Below, one piece after another: positions 11,200-32,212 of a DNA stretch of 64,000 nucleotides; position 1 is the stretch's first letter, and every line of letters begins with the position of its first letter. The position numbers and the translations under genes are program-made. A model generated the notes under the pieces. The model ran no database searches, had not been told where the DNA came from, and saw only the letters and a program-made list of their open reading frames with translations. Origin of the DNA: Candidatus Cloacimonadota bacterium (GTDB lineage: Bacteria > Cloacimonadota > Cloacimonadia > Cloacimonadales > JAJBBL01); NCBI GenBank assembly GCA_019429305.1, contig JAHYIR010000002.1, positions 107,574 to 171,573 on the forward strand. Reading direction: 5' to 3'.

Positions 11200-12096
11200 T
11201 TAATCTTTACTCCTCGGATGCGCCTGTTTATAGATTTTCAATAGATCTGTATGAGAAATATGGGTATATTTCTCTGTCGTTGAAAGGTTACTATGCCCGA
11301 GCATCTCTTGGATGGCTCTTAGGTCAGCACCTCTGGAAAGCAAATGCGTTGCAAAGGAATGTCTTATTGTGTGAGGAGTATATCCCTTTGTACGAGCTAC
11401 TAATCTAATATATCTATCCAAAATAGCTCTAATTTCATCTGGATGTAGAGGTTTCCCGCTTTTAGAGAGAAACAAGGATTCATCACTATATTTGGATAAA
11501 AACTTATACCTTATCTTTTCATATTCTTCCAAATGTTCCTTAGCTATTTTGCCAATCGGTACTAACCTTATTTTATTCCCTTTCCCCAAGACCCTTATCA
11601 TACCTTTTTTCAGATCAATATCTTTTCGCTGGCAACCGGCTATTTCTGAGATACGTAATCCGCTGGAATACATCAATTCCATTATAGCTCTATTCCTTTT
11701 CCCAAATTTACTTGTAGTGTCAGGTATATTTAAGAGAGTTTCCATCTCCTTTTCGGTAAAATATGTAGGAATATAAGATTCTGTCTTAGGCATTGACATC
11801 CCTGTCAGCGGATTATGTGTTAAAATACCTTGTCTTACAGCAAAAATAAAGAAATTATTAATTGCTGTCATTTTACGCGAAAGGGTTTTATTACAGCGTT
11901 TAGTAACACTCAATTCCCTCAGATAGTCACGCATCATTAACTTTGTTATCACTTCAGGTATGACTACTTCACCTTCAAAGTACTTAGATACATAACCAAA
12001 AAACTGCTCTATATCACTGACATATGCTCTTACAGTATGCTCTGATGCACCCGTAGATTTCAGATATTGCCTGTAAAGATCTATCTTATCTTTCAT
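11200..12096 (-). CDS. XerC/XerD-type tyrosine recombinase
   Basis: A 298-residue site-specific recombinase. The N-terminal core-binding SAM-like domain covers about residues 1-95. The catalytic domain carries the first Arg in YSSGLRISEIAG, Lys in VLGKGNKIRLVP, HTIRHSFATHLL (His and second Arg), LGHSNLSTTEKY (last His and the nucleophilic Tyr). All are present. The length and compactness match chromosomal XerC/XerD, which resolve chromosome dimers at dif, more than phage integrases. The neighbouring housekeeping genes support this. Whether it is XerC, XerD or a single-recombinase system is not decided. Confidence 0.88.
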   Translation of the reverse strand: MKDKIDLYRQYLKSTGASEHTVRAYVSDIEQFFGYVSKYFEGEVVIPEVITKLMMRDYLRELSVTKRCNKTLSRKMTAINNFFIFAVRQGILTHNPLTGMSMPKTESYIPTYFTEKEMETLLNIPDTTSKFGKRNRAIMELMYSSGLRISEIAGCQRKDIDLKKGMIRVLGKGNKIRLVPIGKIAKEHLEEYEKIRYKFLSKYSDESLFLSKSGKPLHPDEIRAILDRYIRLVARTKGYTPHTIRHSFATHLLSRGADLRAIQEMLGHSNLSTTEKYTHISHTDLLKIYKQAHPRSKD

Positions 12097-12391: not shown

Positions 12392-13804
12392 ATGTTATCA
12401 TTCGAATTTAAAGCAAGTGAATATTATCCTGACCTGATTACTAACAAGGCAATCTTTCAGCAAACAGCTTTTACGGAAAGAGAGATACCCCGTTTTGTTG
12501 CCGAATCGATTATTGCAGATTTCATGAAGGAAGGCACAGAACTAACAGATATTATTCGGGATCAAATAAACGGTTTTATTGAGAATCATGTACCCCACAA
12601 GTCACAAAGAGGTGAACTCAAACAAAAATTTCTTAGTTTTGAAGTAGTAAACCTATTAGATAATTATTCTGTTGCAGTAAACAATAATAATGACGAAAAG
12701 TACCTACGGATACCATTTTTAAACCTCAATTATGCCGGAGTGATAGCAAAGATTGTTCAAGACAATGAAAATCTTCTCAAACAAGGGGTCTGGGGAATTG
12801 GTGAACTTTTTTATGTTCCTTCACCAGACAAATCGGGCGAAGGACAAGTCTGGATGCTTAACTTTCAACCATACAAAACAAAACCAGTAGATCTAATTGC
12901 CTTTATTGAGTATCGTAAATTTTTCAATATCACTGAATGGATAGATTTACTTATTTCTTCAATGGGGATAAATCCCGTTGATAATGAAGAACAACAAAAG
13001 TTAATACTGCTATCAAGACTAATCCCTTTATTAGAACCAAGTATCAATTTAATTGAGTTGTCATCAACAAAAGATAGATCTTTGAAGATGGATCGGTTCT
13101 CACATTATGCAAGTGTTACTCAAGGACCCAGAATCTCGCATGAAACTCTCTTCTATAACCCAAAGATTTTTGTCTCAGGACTCTTAAAACGCTATGATAC
13201 AATTATGATTGATAATACAAAACATATTAAAGATGATGATAGCGGAAAACTCCTTACTAAGTTGATTACATATCTTAAAATAGGCAAATTCTTTGACGGT
13301 AGTTCTGAGACCACTGCCAATACAAATTTAGTGTTATCAACAGACATTAGTTTAGATGAGCATAATATCCCGGTTAATTACGATATGAGCTGCTTCCAAG
13401 AACTCCCTCCATTTCTTCAGAAAACCGAGTTAATAGAACTATTCGATGGTGTTATTCAAGATTGGCATCTTCCTACTCCAATCCATGATACACCATCCGA
13501 ATATATCGGTCTTAAGGGTTATATCTTTGCCGAATTACTTCACGAGCTCAGAAGACACAAGTATTACTCTAACTGTGTTAAGCAAAATATTCGGTTGAAC
13601 GGATCAGAAGATATGAAAGACCAAAAAGCGATTCTCAAAATGGCTACAGCCTACTATAAACTTTTATTCCCACATCAACAACTTACACTTGCTGAATTCA
13701 ACCATTACTGTTTGCAACCTGCGATAGAGTTAAGACAAACCCTCCGTGATGAACTTCATAAACTAAACAAATGCGTACCAAAGGTTACACTTGCTATAAA
13801 ATAG
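12392..13804 (+). CDS. BrxL-like protein (TIGR02688 family) lacking ATPase motifs
   Basis: A 470-residue protein that stands alone on the plus strand. Its order of motifs follows BrxL, the Lon-related AAA+ protein of BREX phage-defence systems. There is an N-terminal helical region, then NITEWIDLLISSMGINP (179-195), SRLIPLLEPSINLIEL (208-223), a core, and the C-terminal YIFAELLHELRRHKYY and KLLFPHQQLTLAEF (377-436). In BrxL a P-loop (G-x-x-G-T-G-K-S) follows the IEL motif; here the place is taken by SSTKDRSL (224-231). The Walker B acidic pair is replaced by IMIDN (271-275). It ends where the Lon-like protease domain would begin. No other BREX gene is near. The fold call is from recalled family patterns; the missing motifs are read directly. 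It is likely a non-catalytic paralogue; function unknown. Confidence 0.72.
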   Translation: MLSFEFKASEYYPDLITNKAIFQQTAFTEREIPRFVAESIIADFMKEGTELTDIIRDQINGFIENHVPHKSQRGELKQKFLSFEVVNLLDNYSVAVNNNNDEKYLRIPFLNLNYAGVIAKIVQDNENLLKQGVWGIGELFYVPSPDKSGEGQVWMLNFQPYKTKPVDLIAFIEYRKFFNITEWIDLLISSMGINPVDNEEQQKLILLSRLIPLLEPSINLIELSSTKDRSLKMDRFSHYASVTQGPRISHETLFYNPKIFVSGLLKRYDTIMIDNTKHIKDDDSGKLLTKLITYLKIGKFFDGSSETTANTNLVLSTDISLDEHNIPVNYDMSCFQELPPFLQKTELIELFDGVIQDWHLPTPIHDTPSEYIGLKGYIFAELLHELRRHKYYSNCVKQNIRLNGSEDMKDQKAILKMATAYYKLLFPHQQLTLAEFNHYCLQPAIELRQTLRDELHKLNKCVPKVTLAIK

Positions 13805-13917
13805 GACAAACTCCTACAACTGGTAACAACTCTCGCAGATTTCATTTTCTTCATTATTGCTTTCATACTATACCACTCGTTGTAGCTAATTCTTTATCAA
13901 CGTTGCCTCCCTTCATT

Positions 13918-13979
13918 CATTAGGCACCCTACGAGTCGGCCCTATCCGACTCGTAGGATGCCTAAAGGTTGACCTAATG
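13918..13979. repeat. Palindromic element, copy A
   Basis: The left arm (13918-13939) ends in CCCTACGAGTCGG, the loop is CCCTAT, and the right arm starts CCGACTCGTAGG and ends in CCTAATG. The 19-bp inner stem has a single G-T mismatch. It shares the core AGTCGG-N6-CCGACT and the CATTAG ends with the elements at 32140 and 51662. It lies between the convergent BrxL-like gene and tRNA-Asn. Confidence 0.8.
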
Positions 13980-14025
13980 TTAAATATTTGATAATCAGAG
14001 ATAAAACAAGTTGAACCAAAACAAA

Positions 14026-14052: not shown

Positions 14053-14127
14053 TGGCTCCGGAAGAGGGATTCGAACCCCCGACCTAGTGGTTAACAGCCA
14101 CCCGCTCTACCGCTGAGCTATTCCGGA
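14053..14127 (-). tRNA. tRNA-Asn (anticodon GTT)
   Basis: A 75-nt cloverleaf on the minus strand. The acceptor stem is TCCGGAA/TTCCGGA, the D-arm is GCTC...GAGC, the anticodon stem is GGTGG/CCACT around the loop CTGTTAA (anticodon GTT), and the T-arm contains GGTTCGAATCC. The 3' CCA is encoded. It is followed by a terminator at 14026-14048. Confidence 0.96.
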
Positions 14128-23503: not shown

Positions 23504-26500
23504 TTATTTACTAAACCAGCTAGAAACAAGATCACAAATCTCTATCGGTGTCTCGGCACTATATATCTTTGTTGGAATTATCTCTCGAAAATATCCTCCA
23601 TAGAACTTGTTAATAACTCTACTATCGGCTATTAGAACAACTCCTCTGTCCCTCTTATTTCGGATCAATCTTCCGAATCCTTGTCTAAAACGCAGCATGG
23701 CATTCGGTAAAGTCGAATACATAAAAGGATCTTTACCTTCCTTCCTGAGTTTTTCATAATAAGCTTCTATAATAGGCTCCGAAGGAACTTGGAACGGTAA
23801 TTTATAAAGAATCAAAAGTGATAAAGATTCTCCGGGAACATCGACACCTTCCCAAAATGAGCTTGTTCCAAGCAATACAGCTCTACCATGATCCCTAAAT
23901 TCATTTAAAGTAACTGTCCGACTATATCCTCTACCTTGAGCCAAAAGGAGAATATCTTTCTTGTATAGATCTTCACTGATTTGTTCATAAACTGTGTTAA
24001 GGTCTTTATAAGACGTGAAGAGAACCATGGAACCGACTTTGGCACTATCTATAGCCATTTTGAGTAGCTCTATGCTTTGAGGTGTAAAGTATTCATCGGA
24101 CGGTATTGGTAAGTAACTAGCCGCTAGAACAAGAGTTTGTTTATTGTAATCAAATGGTGAAGGAATAATAGATTCTCTAATAACCTTTTCTTCGTCAAAT
24201 GGGAGACCCATTCTCATTGTGAAGAACTTGAAATTATTTCTTAAGGCAAGAGTTGCTGAAGTAAATATAAGTGAGTTCATTCTATTATAGAGTATCTTTT
24301 GCAGATAACTTGAGACATCCAAAGGTGCATAATTGATAACCCCGGAAGGAAAGTTTGGTTCAGAGGTAGTAAAACTACTCAACCAGAGAGCAAAGTTATC
24401 AAAATCAGGTTCTTTTAAGATTTTTAATGCTTCAATGATGTCTTTCACTTTCTCCAAAGCACCGGATAACTTTTCCTGATGTTCATCATGATCAGCTATC
24501 TGACTCTGATTGATCTGTGAAAGAAACTGTGATAGATTAAACAATCCCTTTTGTATAATTGTTAAATACTCTATGAGTTGTTCTATTCCGCTCAATAAGT
24601 TATCTTCTTGTTGTTTAACTCTCTGTTTACCAAAACTACCCTGTTTACCAACTCTTTCGCCAATAGTTCTAAAATAATCAGCACCAAATTGTTTAGGATC
24701 TTCCAGAGACAAGATCAAACGGTCTATGTCACTATGGAAAATTGTTTTCTTCTTATCATCGATAACACTCTTTTGAATTGCTCCCTTTAAATTGGGCAAA
24801 ATTCCCGCTTGGAGATTTCTTCGAACATTGATATTTGCCAATTGGTGAATGTAGTTAGTTATATCAGTGTAAGATATTGATATTCCCAGATAGCTGGAAG
24901 CCATCTCGGGTAGATTATGAGCTTCATCAATAATGAGATAATTCTCTTCGTCGTTGTTAAATCTGTCAAAACTCAGATCGGTTAGTAATAAAGAATGATT
25001 TGTTACAACAAGACTTGATTTTTCTGCTTTTTGACGAATACCCATATAATAGCACTGATTGTAATCAGCACATTTTCTTCCGGAACAGAAATATCTTTCA
25101 GAAGAAATTTTCCTCCAAATTGACGAATATTGACGTCTGATATCGGTCTCTGATTCTCTAACAAAAGAACTGTTTTCTGAAATATCACCAGAACGCGTAT
25201 ATTTCTGCCAAACGACCAGATTAAGCAAAGCACCAGCTTCGTAAGGTGTTACTAGTTTACGATATCCCGTATGAGTCTCTTTCCATTTACGGTAACAGAG
25301 ATAATTTTCACGTCCTTTGAGAATTACCGCTTGAAAAGGCACCGGAACGCATTGTTTAATAATTGGTAAATCTTTATAAAACAGCTGTTCCTGCAAGTTC
25401 TTGGTATTTGTCGAGATATTTACTTTACGTGATTTCTTGATAGCAAAATGTAGCGCTGTAACAAGATAGGCAAGAGTTTTACCGATTCCAGTCCCTGCTT
25501 CAATAATCAGAAATTCATCATTATTGAGAGCATTGTCGATAGCATGTGCCATCTCTACTTGCCCTTCCCGATACTCATATTCCGGAAACTTATGAGCAAA
25601 AAAACCATCTGGTTGAAAACTTAAATTCACTATAGATTCTTCGCTCTTCATTTTCTTATAATCTTCTATAGGATTTGGTTCTGTCGAATCACTTGAGGTG
25701 AAATCCATAGTTGATAGCTGATTACCGGAAAGTTTTTCGGCTTCTTTCTCCTGGTACCAGTTTTCGGTTCTGATCAGATTGTGTGATTGTGTAAATCCGA
25801 GCGTTTTTGCATAAGGAGATTGATAGAGTCGATAATAATCATCTGATTTTCTATCTATCAGGGCGAATTGTCTCTGATGTTCGACTATTTTTTTGAAAAA
25901 TCTTTCTAAATCAGCATCTTGTTCTGCGTATTCAGCAAGCTCTAACAAAGCTGTATTTACTTCAAACGGCATGTTTTCAATTATGAATTCAGTTAATCTG
26001 ATAAAGACATTACCAGTTATTAAAGCGTCATTGAGTGCACGGTGATATTTATTAGGTGGTTTTATTTGTAAGGCATCGGCTACAGTTTCTAGTTTATGAT
26101 TTCTGATAAAGGGGAGATAAATTCTGCTAACCTCCAAAGTATCAAATGAAGAGTTGGTCAATGATGGCATTAGATGCATTGTAAGATTATTCTGTATGAA
26201 GGTTAGATCAAAACCTGAATTATGGCAAATAATGGGATCTTTTTGTATGAACTCGAGAAGCTCTGTCAGTGCCTTCTTGATGTTGACACCGTTTTCCAGA
26301 TCACTCTCTTTAATACCGGTCAACTGTTTAATAAAGGTTGGTACTTCTTGTGTAGGTTTAATCAGAACAGAAAATTCTTCTGCTTCTTTGCCCTCTTTAA
26401 ATCTAACAGCACCTATTTCAATGATTTCACAGTTTTGAGGATCTAAACCGGTTGTTTCAATATCAAGAGCGACAAATGCAAAAGATTTCCAAAATTTATT

Positions 26501-26515
26501 ATTTTTCAAGGTCAT
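23504..26515 (-). CDS. dinG: DinG-family helicase fused to a DnaQ-like 3'-5' exonuclease
   Basis: A 1003-residue protein. Residues about 10-175 are a DEDD exonuclease: FVALDIETTG, HNSGFDLTF and YHRALNDALITG give the acidic metal ligands and the final His-Asp. The helicase part has Walker A EAGTGIGKTLAYL (near 341), four cysteines for a 4Fe-4S cluster (YLCYRKW near 407, then C-x5-C and C-x-x-x-x-C near 478), the DEAH box IIDEAHNLPEM (near 530) and the late GRLIRNKRDRGV. This arrangement is known in Gram-positive DinG proteins. It overlaps the end of the sigma-54 activator gene by 17 nt, so the two are co-translated. Confidence 0.9.
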   Translation of the reverse strand: MTLKNNKFWKSFAFVALDIETTGLDPQNCEIIEIGAVRFKEGKEAEEFSVLIKPTQEVPTFIKQLTGIKESDLENGVNIKKALTELLEFIQKDPIICHNSGFDLTFIQNNLTMHLMPSLTNSSFDTLEVSRIYLPFIRNHKLETVADALQIKPPNKYHRALNDALITGNVFIRLTEFIIENMPFEVNTALLELAEYAEQDADLERFFKKIVEHQRQFALIDRKSDDYYRLYQSPYAKTLGFTQSHNLIRTENWYQEKEAEKLSGNQLSTMDFTSSDSTEPNPIEDYKKMKSEESIVNLSFQPDGFFAHKFPEYEYREGQVEMAHAIDNALNNDEFLIIEAGTGIGKTLAYLVTALHFAIKKSRKVNISTNTKNLQEQLFYKDLPIIKQCVPVPFQAVILKGRENYLCYRKWKETHTGYRKLVTPYEAGALLNLVVWQKYTRSGDISENSSFVRESETDIRRQYSSIWRKISSERYFCSGRKCADYNQCYYMGIRQKAEKSSLVVTNHSLLLTDLSFDRFNNDEENYLIIDEAHNLPEMASSYLGISISYTDITNYIHQLANINVRRNLQAGILPNLKGAIQKSVIDDKKKTIFHSDIDRLILSLEDPKQFGADYFRTIGERVGKQGSFGKQRVKQQEDNLLSGIEQLIEYLTIIQKGLFNLSQFLSQINQSQIADHDEHQEKLSGALEKVKDIIEALKILKEPDFDNFALWLSSFTTSEPNFPSGVINYAPLDVSSYLQKILYNRMNSLIFTSATLALRNNFKFFTMRMGLPFDEEKVIRESIIPSPFDYNKQTLVLAASYLPIPSDEYFTPQSIELLKMAIDSAKVGSMVLFTSYKDLNTVYEQISEDLYKKDILLLAQGRGYSRTVTLNEFRDHGRAVLLGTSSFWEGVDVPGESLSLLILYKLPFQVPSEPIIEAYYEKLRKEGKDPFMYSTLPNAMLRFRQGFGRLIRNKRDRGVVLIADSRVINKFYGGYFREIIPTKIYSAETPIEICDLVSSWFSK

Positions 26516-29500
26516 AGCGTTTAATCTTCTTGATCAAGCCCTGTCGACTTAAGCCGAGCTCCTTAGCTGTCTGGGTTTGATTCCAAGCATTACGCTGTAG
26601 CGCTTTCAAGATCATGCTTCTCTCAAGATCTTCTATAGCATCTTTTAAAGCAGCATTTTCATTAAAACTCATAGATTCTTCTGTTATAGTATGGCGGAAA
26701 ATATCTTCCGACAGATCCGATGGTTTAATATAGGCATCATTTTCTACCAAAGTAACTGCGCGTTCTATTTCATTCTCCAGTTGTCGAATATTGCCTGGCC
26801 AATCACAATCCATGAAGTATTTCATTGCTTCGTCGGTTATGCCTTTGATATTCTTAACCATTTTTTTGTTATATTTATCGAGGAAATGGATCGCTAAAAG
26901 TGGAATATCCGATTTTCTCTCACTTAATCTCGGTACTTCGATCTTGATAACATTCAATCTATAGTAGAGATCCAAGCGAAATTCTCCCTTTTCGATCTTT
27001 TCTTTCAAAGGAACATTTGTTGCACAAATAACTCTAACATCAACTGTTTGAGTTTTAGTTGAACCGACTCTTTTGATCTCTCCCTCTTGCAGAAATCTCA
27101 GAAGTTTGGCTTGAGTAGATAAACTAATATCGGCAATTTCATCTAAAAAGAAAGTACCACCATCGGCTATCTCGAACAACCCTTTTTTATCATAAGTAGC
27201 TCCGGTAAAAGAACCTTTAACATGTCCGAACAATTCACTCTCTAACAGCGTTTCAGGTAAAGATCCACAATATTGAGCTACAAACTTCTTGTTGCGTCGA
27301 ACACTGTTATAATGAATAGCTTTGGCAATAAGCTCTTTTCCAGTCCCACTCTCTCCTTCTAACAATACGGTAGTTGGAACATCTTTTACCTTTTCTATTA
27401 TATCAAATATCTCCTGCATCTTCTCACTTTTACCGATGATATTTGTAAAGATCTGTGGAGAGCTCAGCTCTTCGCGTATACTAGCGTGAGACAAAGACAA
27501 CGCGGAATGCCGAAAATTTTCTATGATAACAACTGTTTGATTAGAAAGAGCATTAAGAAGATTACAGATTTGTTCGGAAAAATAGTGTGAGCCATGCTTA
27601 CTAAAGAGTAACATAACTCCTAAAACCTGATTATGAAAACTAAGCGGGAATGCGACAATATTGTTATAGTCTGCAGCAAAATGCGGTTGTTTGTAGTTTT
27701 GAAACTTATTTTCCATAAAGGTTTTTTGAACAATATTCATCATGTTATCATAATCTTTATCGTCATTAGAAAAGTGATTAAAGAGTTTATATTCCCAGCT
27801 TTCCGGATTTGCACGACTATTATAGAGACAGAATATACCCCCATCCGCTTCAGAAAGGTCAATAAAGCTATCCAAGGCATATTCTAATAACGAATCAAAA
27901 CTTGTTATCGATTTTAAGTTTTGTGTTGTTTCGTTGAACTTAATCAGCAAAGATTCTTGCTTGCGACTCTCTTGTATTTCCGGTTGGAATGTTTTTTCTA
28001 TTTTCTGGATAAAGAGATCATTCTTTTCAATCAGACTGATCGCACCATATTCCTTAAGAATCTTCTTGTTATTGTTCAAAATCTCTAATGCTTGTTGCCA
28101 TTCCTTGTTCTCATAAAGAATCGTAGCAAACTCATAATTAGCAAGAGCTAATTCATAGTAATTTTTTGTCTCGACAAATATTTTAATCGCTTTTTCGAAA
28201 TATTCTTGCGCCTTTTCGGCATCTTTATGCTCTAATTGTCCTTTCAGGAAATATGTATTCCCTATCTCAAATATACTGTTAATCTCTTCCGCTTTTTCTA
28301 AAGCCAGATCCAGATAATAAGAAGCACTTTCGTAATTTCGGCTGACGATGAAATAGTAAGCCATTTTATGGCACCCTTCAATGATCCTATCGTGAGCATT
28401 CAGAGCTTTAAAGAAATCCAAACTCTCTACCAAATAACCGTACGCTTCACTAAATTTATGAAGATTGGTGAGTACGCTTCCCATGTTTCCAGATATCTCA
28501 GCTCTTAGATATTCGTCATTAAGTTCCGGAATAATCTTGGTTGCTTTAAAATAGAGATCATAGGCAAGTTCATATTCACCCCTTTTTTCATATAACTCAC
28601 CCAAATTATTATATGATGTGCATAACCCTTCTAAGAAGTTATTCTTGTTGGATTTTTCAATAGCTTCCTCGTAGCATTCTACTGCTTTAGCCCATTTCCC
28701 AGACTTGAAGTATAGAGCACCCATATTATTCAGCACTGCTATCAAGTTTTTCAGTAAATTAAAGTTTTTGGCTATTTCCAGAGTTTTTTCAAAAGCTTCA
28801 GCAGCTTTCTCAAATTCTCCGTTATCCATGTAAGTCACTCCGATGTTATTATAAATGTTGCAGATGTTATAACGGTCACTGAGCAGCTTTTTGATTGTGA
28901 GAGCTTCGTTGAAATAATTGAGCGATTTTTTATAGTCTCCCCTATCTTCCCACAGACCCCCTAAATTGTTATAGCAGACTGATATACCGTCTAAATTATA
29001 TCTTTTCTTTTCTAAATTGAGACTCTTAAGATAATACTCTTCTGCCTCTTTCCAATCACCTTTATACATTTTGAGAATACCGAGATTATTATTGATCGCT
29101 GCTTGACCGGCAATATCTTTTATATTACTATATATTTTTTCTGCTTCATTAAAGGCGGCTTCCGCCTTATCCCATTGGCTGGTATAATAGTAGATTTTTC
29201 CTAAAACCTTTTTAGTTTCAGCAAATATAATCTGCTTTTTGTCTCCATCTTTGATGTTTTCATATTCTTGATAAATCTGGTCAGTGAATTCTTTTGCCTT
29301 TTTATCGTTATTAAGCTCGATATTGATCTCTGCCTGTAAAAGTATGATTTTACACAACCAATACTTATCATTTAATGATCGTTGATACTTTTTAATAACT
29401 TCCAGAGCATAGACGTATGAATTCATCTTGTAGAGACTTTCGGCTAATTCATAGATGATTTCTTCCAGCGGTATTTTGTTTTTACCGGCAATCTGCAATG

Positions 29501-30809
29501 CTTCCCGAAGATTCTGTCCTGCTGTTTCGTAACGGTTTAGTTTCTTATTAACTCTACCGATCCTAAGTTGAAGAGCTACCTTCTTTTTTTCCGATTTAAA
29601 AATCTTATCCAGTATATGCAACACATCTAACAAATTATCATAATCATGAATCTGTTCCAAATAAAAACTGACACTGGAGAGAACTTTCTCTTCGGGCAAC
29701 CTCGCCTCTTTATCATAGAGATATTGCTTGATCTGGTAAGTTTCTATTAACTTATGTTGATCACTGTCGTACTGAGTATAAAAACCATGAAAATACTGAT
29801 AGAATCTTTTCTTTTCTTCGCGATCAAGATTAAAAAAGTATTCTTTGAAACAATCCAATTTCAAGATCCAACAACAGCTCTCTGTATCTTCAATAATTAT
29901 TTCTTTTAAAAGATCTTTCTTCAGATCTTTCAGTTTTGCCATCTCAATTTTTATTCCCTTTTGAGAAAAAAATTGCTTTAGTGTTTCTTCGGAAGATTTT
30001 TTATCAAGCAGGAAAATCGCTTTGAGTAAATCCTTTTGTTGATTATTTAATCTATCTAATTTCTCTTTATATATCATATGAATATTGATCTTCTTGTCTA
30101 AATAACCTGTTAAGTTAAAATCCTTAGGTTTTTCTTTCTTATAGAACTCATTTAAAATATGCTCGATTATATAAACATTACCTTGTGTAAGGTTGTATAA
30201 GATCTCACTCTGTGACTGAAGTCCTTCCTCTTTCTGATTGAAAAGCTCTTGCAAGATGCCTAAAATATCTGATATATTAAAAAACTCTAATTTCTCTTTG
30301 GTTGAAAAGGGAAATAACTCTTTGGTAGAGAATACTACTATCTTTATCTGACGATTCGTTGAATACTGGATAAAATACTGGATGAAATCCAAGGAGTAAC
30401 TATCGATTTCTTCTCCGCTGTCTATCAACAGTACCAGATCATGTAACTTCTTTTCCTTTCGCATCTTCTCTGTTAGCTGATAAAAGAAATCATACTTTCC
30501 TACGGTTTCTAGTTCTGATGCTTGTTTGATAACTCTATCAAATTCTTTATCTGTTAAATTGAAAACCAACTTAAAGATGTTCCTGAACTGATTGATATCA
30601 AAAACAGAGGGATAGTATTTTATATATTTGATCTCTTTTTCATCTAACTCTTGACAAAGCTTTTTGTAAAGATAGGATTTACCGGATCCTGAGGCACCAT
30701 TTACTTCAATTAGCTCACTGCTCTTTAAGTCGATCTTGCGCAGTAGTTCGTTAATGATCTCACTTTGCCCTATATGTTGTAATATTGTCTTATTAATAAC
30801 CCTATGCAT
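26499..30809 (-). CDS. Sigma-54 activator with N-terminal ATPase, TPR array and GAF domain
   Basis: A 1436-residue regulator. Residues about 10-330 are a STAND/AAA-type ATPase (Walker A GASGSGKS at 38-45, LVLLIDSGEEID as Walker B). From about 365 to 960 come tandem TPR repeats (repeated AINNNLGILKMYKGDWKEAE-like units). A GAF-like sensor domain covers roughly 955-1105. The sigma-54 AAA+ domain follows: GESGTGKELIAKAIHYNS near 1150, GSFTGA near 1198 (first Ala of GAFTGA is Ser), GGTFFLDEIADI. It ends in a Fis-type HTH (NQTQTAKELGLSRQGLIKKI). It should activate RpoN promoters after sensing through the N-terminal part. Signal and targets are unknown. Confidence 0.88.
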   Translation of the reverse strand: MHRVINKTILQHIGQSEIINELLRKIDLKSSELIEVNGASGSGKSYLYKKLCQELDEKEIKYIKYYPSVFDINQFRNIFKLVFNLTDKEFDRVIKQASELETVGKYDFFYQLTEKMRKEKKLHDLVLLIDSGEEIDSYSLDFIQYFIQYSTNRQIKIVVFSTKELFPFSTKEKLEFFNISDILGILQELFNQKEEGLQSQSEILYNLTQGNVYIIEHILNEFYKKEKPKDFNLTGYLDKKINIHMIYKEKLDRLNNQQKDLLKAIFLLDKKSSEETLKQFFSQKGIKIEMAKLKDLKKDLLKEIIIEDTESCCWILKLDCFKEYFFNLDREEKKRFYQYFHGFYTQYDSDQHKLIETYQIKQYLYDKEARLPEEKVLSSVSFYLEQIHDYDNLLDVLHILDKIFKSEKKKVALQLRIGRVNKKLNRYETAGQNLREALQIAGKNKIPLEEIIYELAESLYKMNSYVYALEVIKKYQRSLNDKYWLCKIILLQAEINIELNNDKKAKEFTDQIYQEYENIKDGDKKQIIFAETKKVLGKIYYYTSQWDKAEAAFNEAEKIYSNIKDIAGQAAINNNLGILKMYKGDWKEAEEYYLKSLNLEKKRYNLDGISVCYNNLGGLWEDRGDYKKSLNYFNEALTIKKLLSDRYNICNIYNNIGVTYMDNGEFEKAAEAFEKTLEIAKNFNLLKNLIAVLNNMGALYFKSGKWAKAVECYEEAIEKSNKNNFLEGLCTSYNNLGELYEKRGEYELAYDLYFKATKIIPELNDEYLRAEISGNMGSVLTNLHKFSEAYGYLVESLDFFKALNAHDRIIEGCHKMAYYFIVSRNYESASYYLDLALEKAEEINSIFEIGNTYFLKGQLEHKDAEKAQEYFEKAIKIFVETKNYYELALANYEFATILYENKEWQQALEILNNNKKILKEYGAISLIEKNDLFIQKIEKTFQPEIQESRKQESLLIKFNETTQNLKSITSFDSLLEYALDSFIDLSEADGGIFCLYNSRANPESWEYKLFNHFSNDDKDYDNMMNIVQKTFMENKFQNYKQPHFAADYNNIVAFPLSFHNQVLGVMLLFSKHGSHYFSEQICNLLNALSNQTVVIIENFRHSALSLSHASIREELSSPQIFTNIIGKSEKMQEIFDIIEKVKDVPTTVLLEGESGTGKELIAKAIHYNSVRRNKKFVAQYCGSLPETLLESELFGHVKGSFTGATYDKKGLFEIADGGTFFLDEIADISLSTQAKLLRFLQEGEIKRVGSTKTQTVDVRVICATNVPLKEKIEKGEFRLDLYYRLNVIKIEVPRLSERKSDIPLLAIHFLDKYNKKMVKNIKGITDEAMKYFMDCDWPGNIRQLENEIERAVTLVENDAYIKPSDLSEDIFRHTITEESMSFNENAALKDAIEDLERSMILKALQRNAWNQTQTAKELGLSRQGLIKKIKRYDLEK

Positions 30810-32139: not shown

Positions 32140-32212
32140 ACTAAGTAACCTTTGGTCACCCTACGAGTCGGCTAGATCCGACTCGTTTGGCTCTGAAAGG
32201 TAAGACATTAGT
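32140..32212. repeat. Palindromic element, copy B
   Basis: The left arm reads ACTAAGTAACCTTT then CACCCTACGAGTCGG, the loop is CTAGAT, and the right arm is CCGACTCG then GAAAGGTAAGACATTAGT. The inner stem is shorter than in copy A, but the ends again pair (ACTAA/TTAGT and ACCTTT/AAAGGT). It lies between two convergent genes. Confidence 0.75.

Follow-up and report, generated by a model that had tools for sequence, protein, structure and literature searches.

An orphan short-form BrxL homologue with degenerate ATPase motifs beside tRNA-Asn in a Candidatus Cloacimonadota genome

A BrxL-like gene lies alone between a xerC/xerD-type recombinase gene and a tRNA-Asn, which is followed by oadA, in the stretch of Candidatus Cloacimonadota DNA analysed here (the window, 64,000 nucleotides in full; Table 1). 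It runs from an ATG to a stop over 470 codons without any internal stop, and the remaining five frames of the same region hold 24-50 stops each. Its synonymous codon use and GC3 fall within the range of the genes of the window, and no match to a sigma-70-like promoter was found immediately upstream. oadA and tRNA-Asn are adjacent in two relatives as well, and the sequence past the 3' end of the tRNA differs in all three genomes, so the BrxL-like gene occupies a variable site. No attachment-site repeats of the tRNA-Asn end were found, and the synteny of xerD and oadA was dropped as an empty-site test, since xerD lies elsewhere in the compared relatives and the sequence next to oadA and tRNA-Asn varies. 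The inverted repeat between the BrxL-like gene and the tRNA is a palindromic element (CACCCTACGAGTCGG-loop-CCGACTCGT) that occurs twice in the window, with one copy just downstream of the gene; it is possibly a repeated mobile or terminator-like element, and the stretch 13805-13990 has a fold z-score of -6.4. The window also encodes two fusion proteins, one of which joins an RNase T-type exonuclease to a DinG-like helicase, and the other AAA_16, TPR repeats, GAF, a sigma-54 activator domain and a Fis-type HTH.

Table 1. Location of the BrxL-like gene, its domains and degenerate motifs, neighbouring features of the window, and BREX-like operons of intact relatives (in the coordinates of each locus)
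Feature	Position	Strand	Remarks
xerC/xerD-type recombinase gene	11200..12096	-	
BrxL-like gene, putative pseudo-ATPase	12392..13804	+	470 aa; short (type-4-like) BrxL branch, without C-terminal Lon/HKD domain
BrxL_N region (HTH-like and OB-fold domains)	12422..12814	+	residues 11-141; Pfam PF20442, 7.6e-19
BrxL_ATPase (MCM-like AAA+) domain, catalytically degenerate	12851..13771	+	residues 154-460; Pfam PF13337, 1.7e-61, and motif comparison
Degenerate Walker A	13061..13081	+	SST-KDRS (residues 224-230) replaces APKGTGKS; one codon deleted
Degenerate Walker B	13205..13219	+	MIDNT (residues 272-276); Asp274 kept, catalytic Glu replaced by Asn275
Degenerate sensor-1 region	13337..13348	+	STDI (residues 316-319) replaces L(G/A)NI; Asn replaced by Asp318
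Degenerate conserved DR-H-G motif	13427..13450	+	ELIELFDG (residues 346-353); Arg350 replaced by Leu, His352 by Asp
Strong inverted repeat	13913..13972		between BrxL-like gene and tRNA-Asn; second related copy near 32158-32190
tRNA-Asn(gtt)	14053..14127	-	3' end faces the BrxL-like gene
RNase T-type exonuclease and DinG-like helicase fusion	23504-26515	-	1003 aa
AAA_16, TPR, GAF, sigma-54 activator and Fis-type HTH fusion	26499-30809	-	1436 aa
BREX-like operon, L054	760-13410		
BREX-like operon, L058	162-11416		
BREX-like operon, L061 and L063	start-11404		
BREX-like operon, L059	start-11413		

The encoded protein is beyond doubt a BrxL homologue. Its two Pfam domains, of which the HTH-like and OB-fold parts of BrxL_N are named after PMC12839542, score 208 bits for PF13337 (cut-off 25) and 68 bits for PF20442 (cut-off 28.2), the PADLOC BrxL profile matches at 1.1e-79, and a sequence search of the PDB returned 8EMC and 8EMH as the sole matches (1.7e-25). 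The NCBIfam equivalog model TIGR02688 also matches significantly (3e-87), with 293 bits that lie below the curated cut-off of 329.3, so the protein does not qualify as an equivalog; intact relatives in the order score 356-656, one fragment excepted. The predicted structure (pLDDT 87, pTM 0.89) returned 8EMC/8EMH for all of its top 24 Foldseek matches, with a best TM of 0.78 by query length, followed by MCM proteins, and an intact relative from Cloacimonadota AUK288 (L055), modelled likewise, reached 0.82; as the alignment behind the model included intact homologues, these values indicate compatibility with the fold and are no proof of it. We infer from the model that the fold is retained. Compared with the Acinetobacter type-1 BrxL of these structures (AcBrxL; PMC10164562), the window protein would share the fold of the first ~460 residues at 20% structural identity, but it has neither the Lon-like domain nor the Walker motifs. 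Profiles and model alike agree with the sequence-only reading, which had recognised BrxL by its TEWIDLLI and KLLFPHQ regions, both of them present.

An order-wide search recovered BrxL in two size classes, of ~690 aa with a C-terminal domain and ~490 aa without it, and type-4 BrxL is described as consisting of BrxL_N and an MCM-like AAA+ domain only, without any C-terminal domain (PMC12839542). The window protein ends at residue 470, after the helical lid, and thus lacks the C-terminal Lon-like or HKD domain of type-1 BrxL. In the tree it falls inside the short, type-4-like branch as sister to L055 and to a homologue from KSB1 MAG B21_G16 (L060), with a split support of 89, and it resembles type-4 short BrxL (PMC12839542) and the clade around it in length, domain order, start site and lack of a C-terminal domain. 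Because it belongs to this kind, the absence of the Lon-like domain is ancestral. The sequence-only reading had rightly called the domain absent, but its loss is ruled out, as the domain is missing from every short-branch homologue; correcting this likely misreading matters, since such a missing domain is normal for the branch.

Identity to the clade is 40-47%, with the AUK288 protein at 46% (its genome and the host genome belong to the same class) and the KSB1 protein at 47%, followed at 40-42% by the Abditibacteriota plasmid pIAD-21, a cyanobacterial MAG, Clostridium homopropionicum, Paenibacillus and Chloroflexota. Set against the mutual identity of intact clade members, mostly 60-70% across phyla (57-95% overall), this distance appears striking. 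No other BrxL was found when the host genome was searched. A phage or plasmid origin of the gene was rejected, as its phage matches are just 23-30% identical and the single plasmid relative 41%. Scans of viral sequences with the window protein, alone or together with the two nearest relatives then found, returned nothing, and a scan of IMG/VR with an intact short BrxL returned 14 loci, all those checked carrying the motifs. These fourteen contigs (L067-L080) are classed as viral, their BrxL homologues are motif-intact and mostly of the short form, and they may represent proviruses, satellites or misclassified islands. In addition, the gene of one short BrxL elsewhere (L018/L036, G008:C249) is intact except for an in-frame TAG.

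The ATPase motifs of the window protein are replaced almost throughout. At the P-loop, ELSST-KDRS stands against ELAPKGTGKS of intact relatives, and at Walker B, IMIDNT against VVLDEVQ; beyond the Walker motifs the substitutions N318D, R350L, H352D and G357D are found, so the loss of Walker A and B that the sequence-only reading had claimed is borne out and extends further, to sensor-1, the Arg and His of the DR-H-G motif and one P-loop codon. Of the residues expected in a functional ATPase (Walker A GxTGKS, Walker B DE, sensor-1 Asn and the conserved Arg), all are replaced save Asp274 and Ser230. At the DNA level one P-loop codon is deleted and nearly all others are changed, and therefore neither a frameshift nor a single error is at work. 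A wrong frame or paired frameshifts at the P-loop were rejected, because this segment stays in frame in the alignment, where it lacks one codon and several others differ individually. All 58 other distinct homologues (the clade, its Chloroflexota cousins, the short and long forms of the order, and IMG/VR contigs) retain the P-loop, the DE of Walker B, the Asn of sensor-1 and the DR/ER Arg, so that among the 59 sequences compared the loss is unique to the window copy, the nearest two and the 56 others all being intact. Judged by these replacements, the protein should neither bind nor hydrolyse ATP. In AcBrxL, assembly on DNA needs ATP binding, and the Walker B Glu mutant E280Q loses phage restriction (PMC10164562); Glu280 corresponds to Asn275 of the window protein. 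The AcBrxL DNA contact R104 aligns with Asn in the window protein and with Lys or His in the clade, and the Leu of the AcBrxL interface residue L134 is still present as Leu129.

Where the contig shows it, the clade relatives, which all keep the ATPase motifs, also have a BREX operon, whereas the window copy has neither. In this operon an Eco57I-type methylase, a DUF4007/SspB-like protein, a ~155-aa AAA protein, a ~1370-aa SspC/BrxC-like protein and a ~785-aa PglZ-like protein are followed by BrxL at the end (order from L054, L058, L061 and L063 and partly, where the contig allows, from L057, L059 and L062), and in L055 the C-terminus of a PglZ precedes brxL (E 6e-12). The gene set is type-4-like (DUF4007/SspB, SspC/BrxC, PglZ and short BrxL), with the Eco57I-type DNA methylase where type 4 is described with a PAPS reductase; it occurs in Abditibacteriota (on a plasmid), Clostridium, Paenibacillus and Chloroflexota, and could be a parallel to type 4 that works by methylation. 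In the 64-kb window, tblastn with the clade's own partner proteins gave no match, and the window gene thus lacks the neighbouring brxC/sspC, pglZ and modification gene of a BREX system. SspC/BrxC gave no match in the host genome, in a search that had no positive control of its own but used a query that recovers homologues in other loci; no BREX-type PglZ stood among the genome-wide PglZ-domain matches, which are a PorX-like response regulator, a phosphoglycerate-mutase-like protein and a phosphatase-like protein (named from sequence); and DUF4007 gave no match in a search of the host genome that had no positive control. The gene is an orphan, as had been proposed.

Branch and site statistics bear on whether such a gene is maintained or decaying. 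The branch of the window protein is 1.06 substitutions per site long, whereas its sisters have branches of about 0.14-0.18; the excess amounts to ~400 amino-acid changes, and no stop or frameshift accompanies them. In neutral simulation 400 amino-acid changes bring ~24 stops, 200 bring ~12 and 50 bring ~3, and with an assumed indel rate frameshifts, of which the gene has none, arise in similar numbers. The gene has kept its start codon, and nearly every column of the alignment is intact, in-frame indels being few. Among 42 deep-invariant positions (those that never vary within the clade and reach at least 90% conservation in more distant homologues), 8/21 are kept in the ATPase core, set at residues 223-357 after viewing the alignment, against 20/21 outside it (Fisher p=1.7e-4), a test that averages over the whole branch of one genome and is compatible with recent relaxation. 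Outside the core, retention is higher for deep-invariant residues (20/21) than for the remaining clade-invariant ones (85/145; p=6e-4), and therefore selection distinguished sites along the window branch. A short recent neutral phase of at most 50 changes cannot explain the 13 core losses, the chance that 50 neutral changes strike 13/21 core sites being about 2e-8. The comparison shows a motif loss targeted at the ATPase core, with constraint retained elsewhere; because of this pattern, the missing stops and the low chance of a short neutral phase, the ATP site was probably lost while the protein was under selection, in line with the earlier proposal of a 470-codon frame kept by selection.

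We consider it rather probable that the gene encodes an orphaned, ATP-independent pseudo-ATPase or binding protein derived from a short BREX BrxL and kept for a non-enzymatic role. Its ancestor would have been a short BrxL encoded in a BREX operon of type-4-like gene content, and the gene would have reached, or stayed behind at, the variable site by tRNA-Asn without its partners. The residues for ATP binding and hydrolysis and the conserved Arg would then have been erased, while selection may have preserved the frame together with residues that are structural in the AAA+ scaffold, in the helical lid and in the HTH/OB domains at the N-terminus. A protein unable to bind or hydrolyse ATP would for that reason not be expected to serve as a loaded ring or as a motor; the present one would most likely work without ATP by passively binding DNA and/or a protein partner, perhaps as a monomer or oligomer that forms constitutively, rather than as an ATP-loaded DNA ring or helicase. 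Its ligands are a guess, and binding to DNA is weakened by the Asn at the R104-aligned position. Against this explanation, the degenerate form is seen in one genome only, fast evolution equally resembles relaxed constraint, and the search for a sigma-70-like promoter just upstream gave no match. The live, and main, rival is accordingly a decaying relic, in which the remaining BREX operon was lost, constraint on brxL relaxed, and the catalytic residues went first with the frame still unbroken. The orphan state, with partners missing from the window and, where tested, from the genome, the uniquely long branch and the variable site beside tRNA-Asn all suit a relic, as do the intact relatives, which the sequence-only reading had itself taken as a possible sign of simple decay; yet the pattern of change argues against such decay, as an excess of ~400 substitutions that left no stop or frameshift is far beyond neutral expectation, and the losses cluster in the ATP site and spare the structural invariants. 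Survivorship bias from choosing an intact ORF is an unlikely source of factors of 1e-5 to 1e-11, and we regard the relic as unlikely, though still with a substantial share of the probability.

A subunit poison or decoy, which would join or compete with the active BrxL rings of incoming BREX-bearing elements or titrate anti-BREX factors of phages, seems improbable. A dead subunit with retained interface residues such as Leu129 could be dominant, and Walker-B-dead AcBrxL abolishes restriction in its own system (PMC10164562), but the host genome offers no BrxL target, co-assembly is doubtful at 40-47% identity, and no recurrent pairing with an active BrxL was seen; the anti-BREX decoy suggested earlier is thus unsupported. 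Nor does the earlier idea of a new class of DNA-binding ring find support, given the need of AcBrxL for ATP and the Asn at the DNA-contact position. Very improbable is an ATPase that is still active through relocated or non-canonical motifs: the protein does retain Asp274, Ser230 and most of the fold, and its P-loop segment holds one Lys and one Arg, but the P-loop glycines and Lys, the Walker B Glu, the sensor-1 Asn and the conserved Arg350 are gone, the loop is one residue shorter, and the 470-aa protein contains no other GxxxxGK[ST]. Overall, the observation of a motif-less orphan BrxL is confirmed, and its earlier interpretation is partly supported.

More broadly, a BREX ring ATPase may have been domesticated to an ATP-independent cellular role outside defence operons, for example as a DNA-binding regulator or scaffold, although we hold this wider reading with somewhat less than even confidence. 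In the open-access literature we came across no description of BrxL as a pseudoenzyme, as an orphan or without its motifs. If real, the case would mean that the MCM-like BrxL fold can persist in an ATP-free role after loss of the BREX system, and that the binding function of the ring is separable from its motor; nature would thereby offer a means of testing which surfaces of BrxL are important. BREX systems commonly contain inactive P-loop components, for example the iSTAND protein BrxB (PMC12839542), and in BrxB and other inactive P-loop/STAND parts a P-loop fold without Walker motifs is likewise retained for a non-enzymatic part; BrxB, however, belongs to another fold family, is conserved across systems and is encoded in the operon, whereas the window gene stands alone in one genome.
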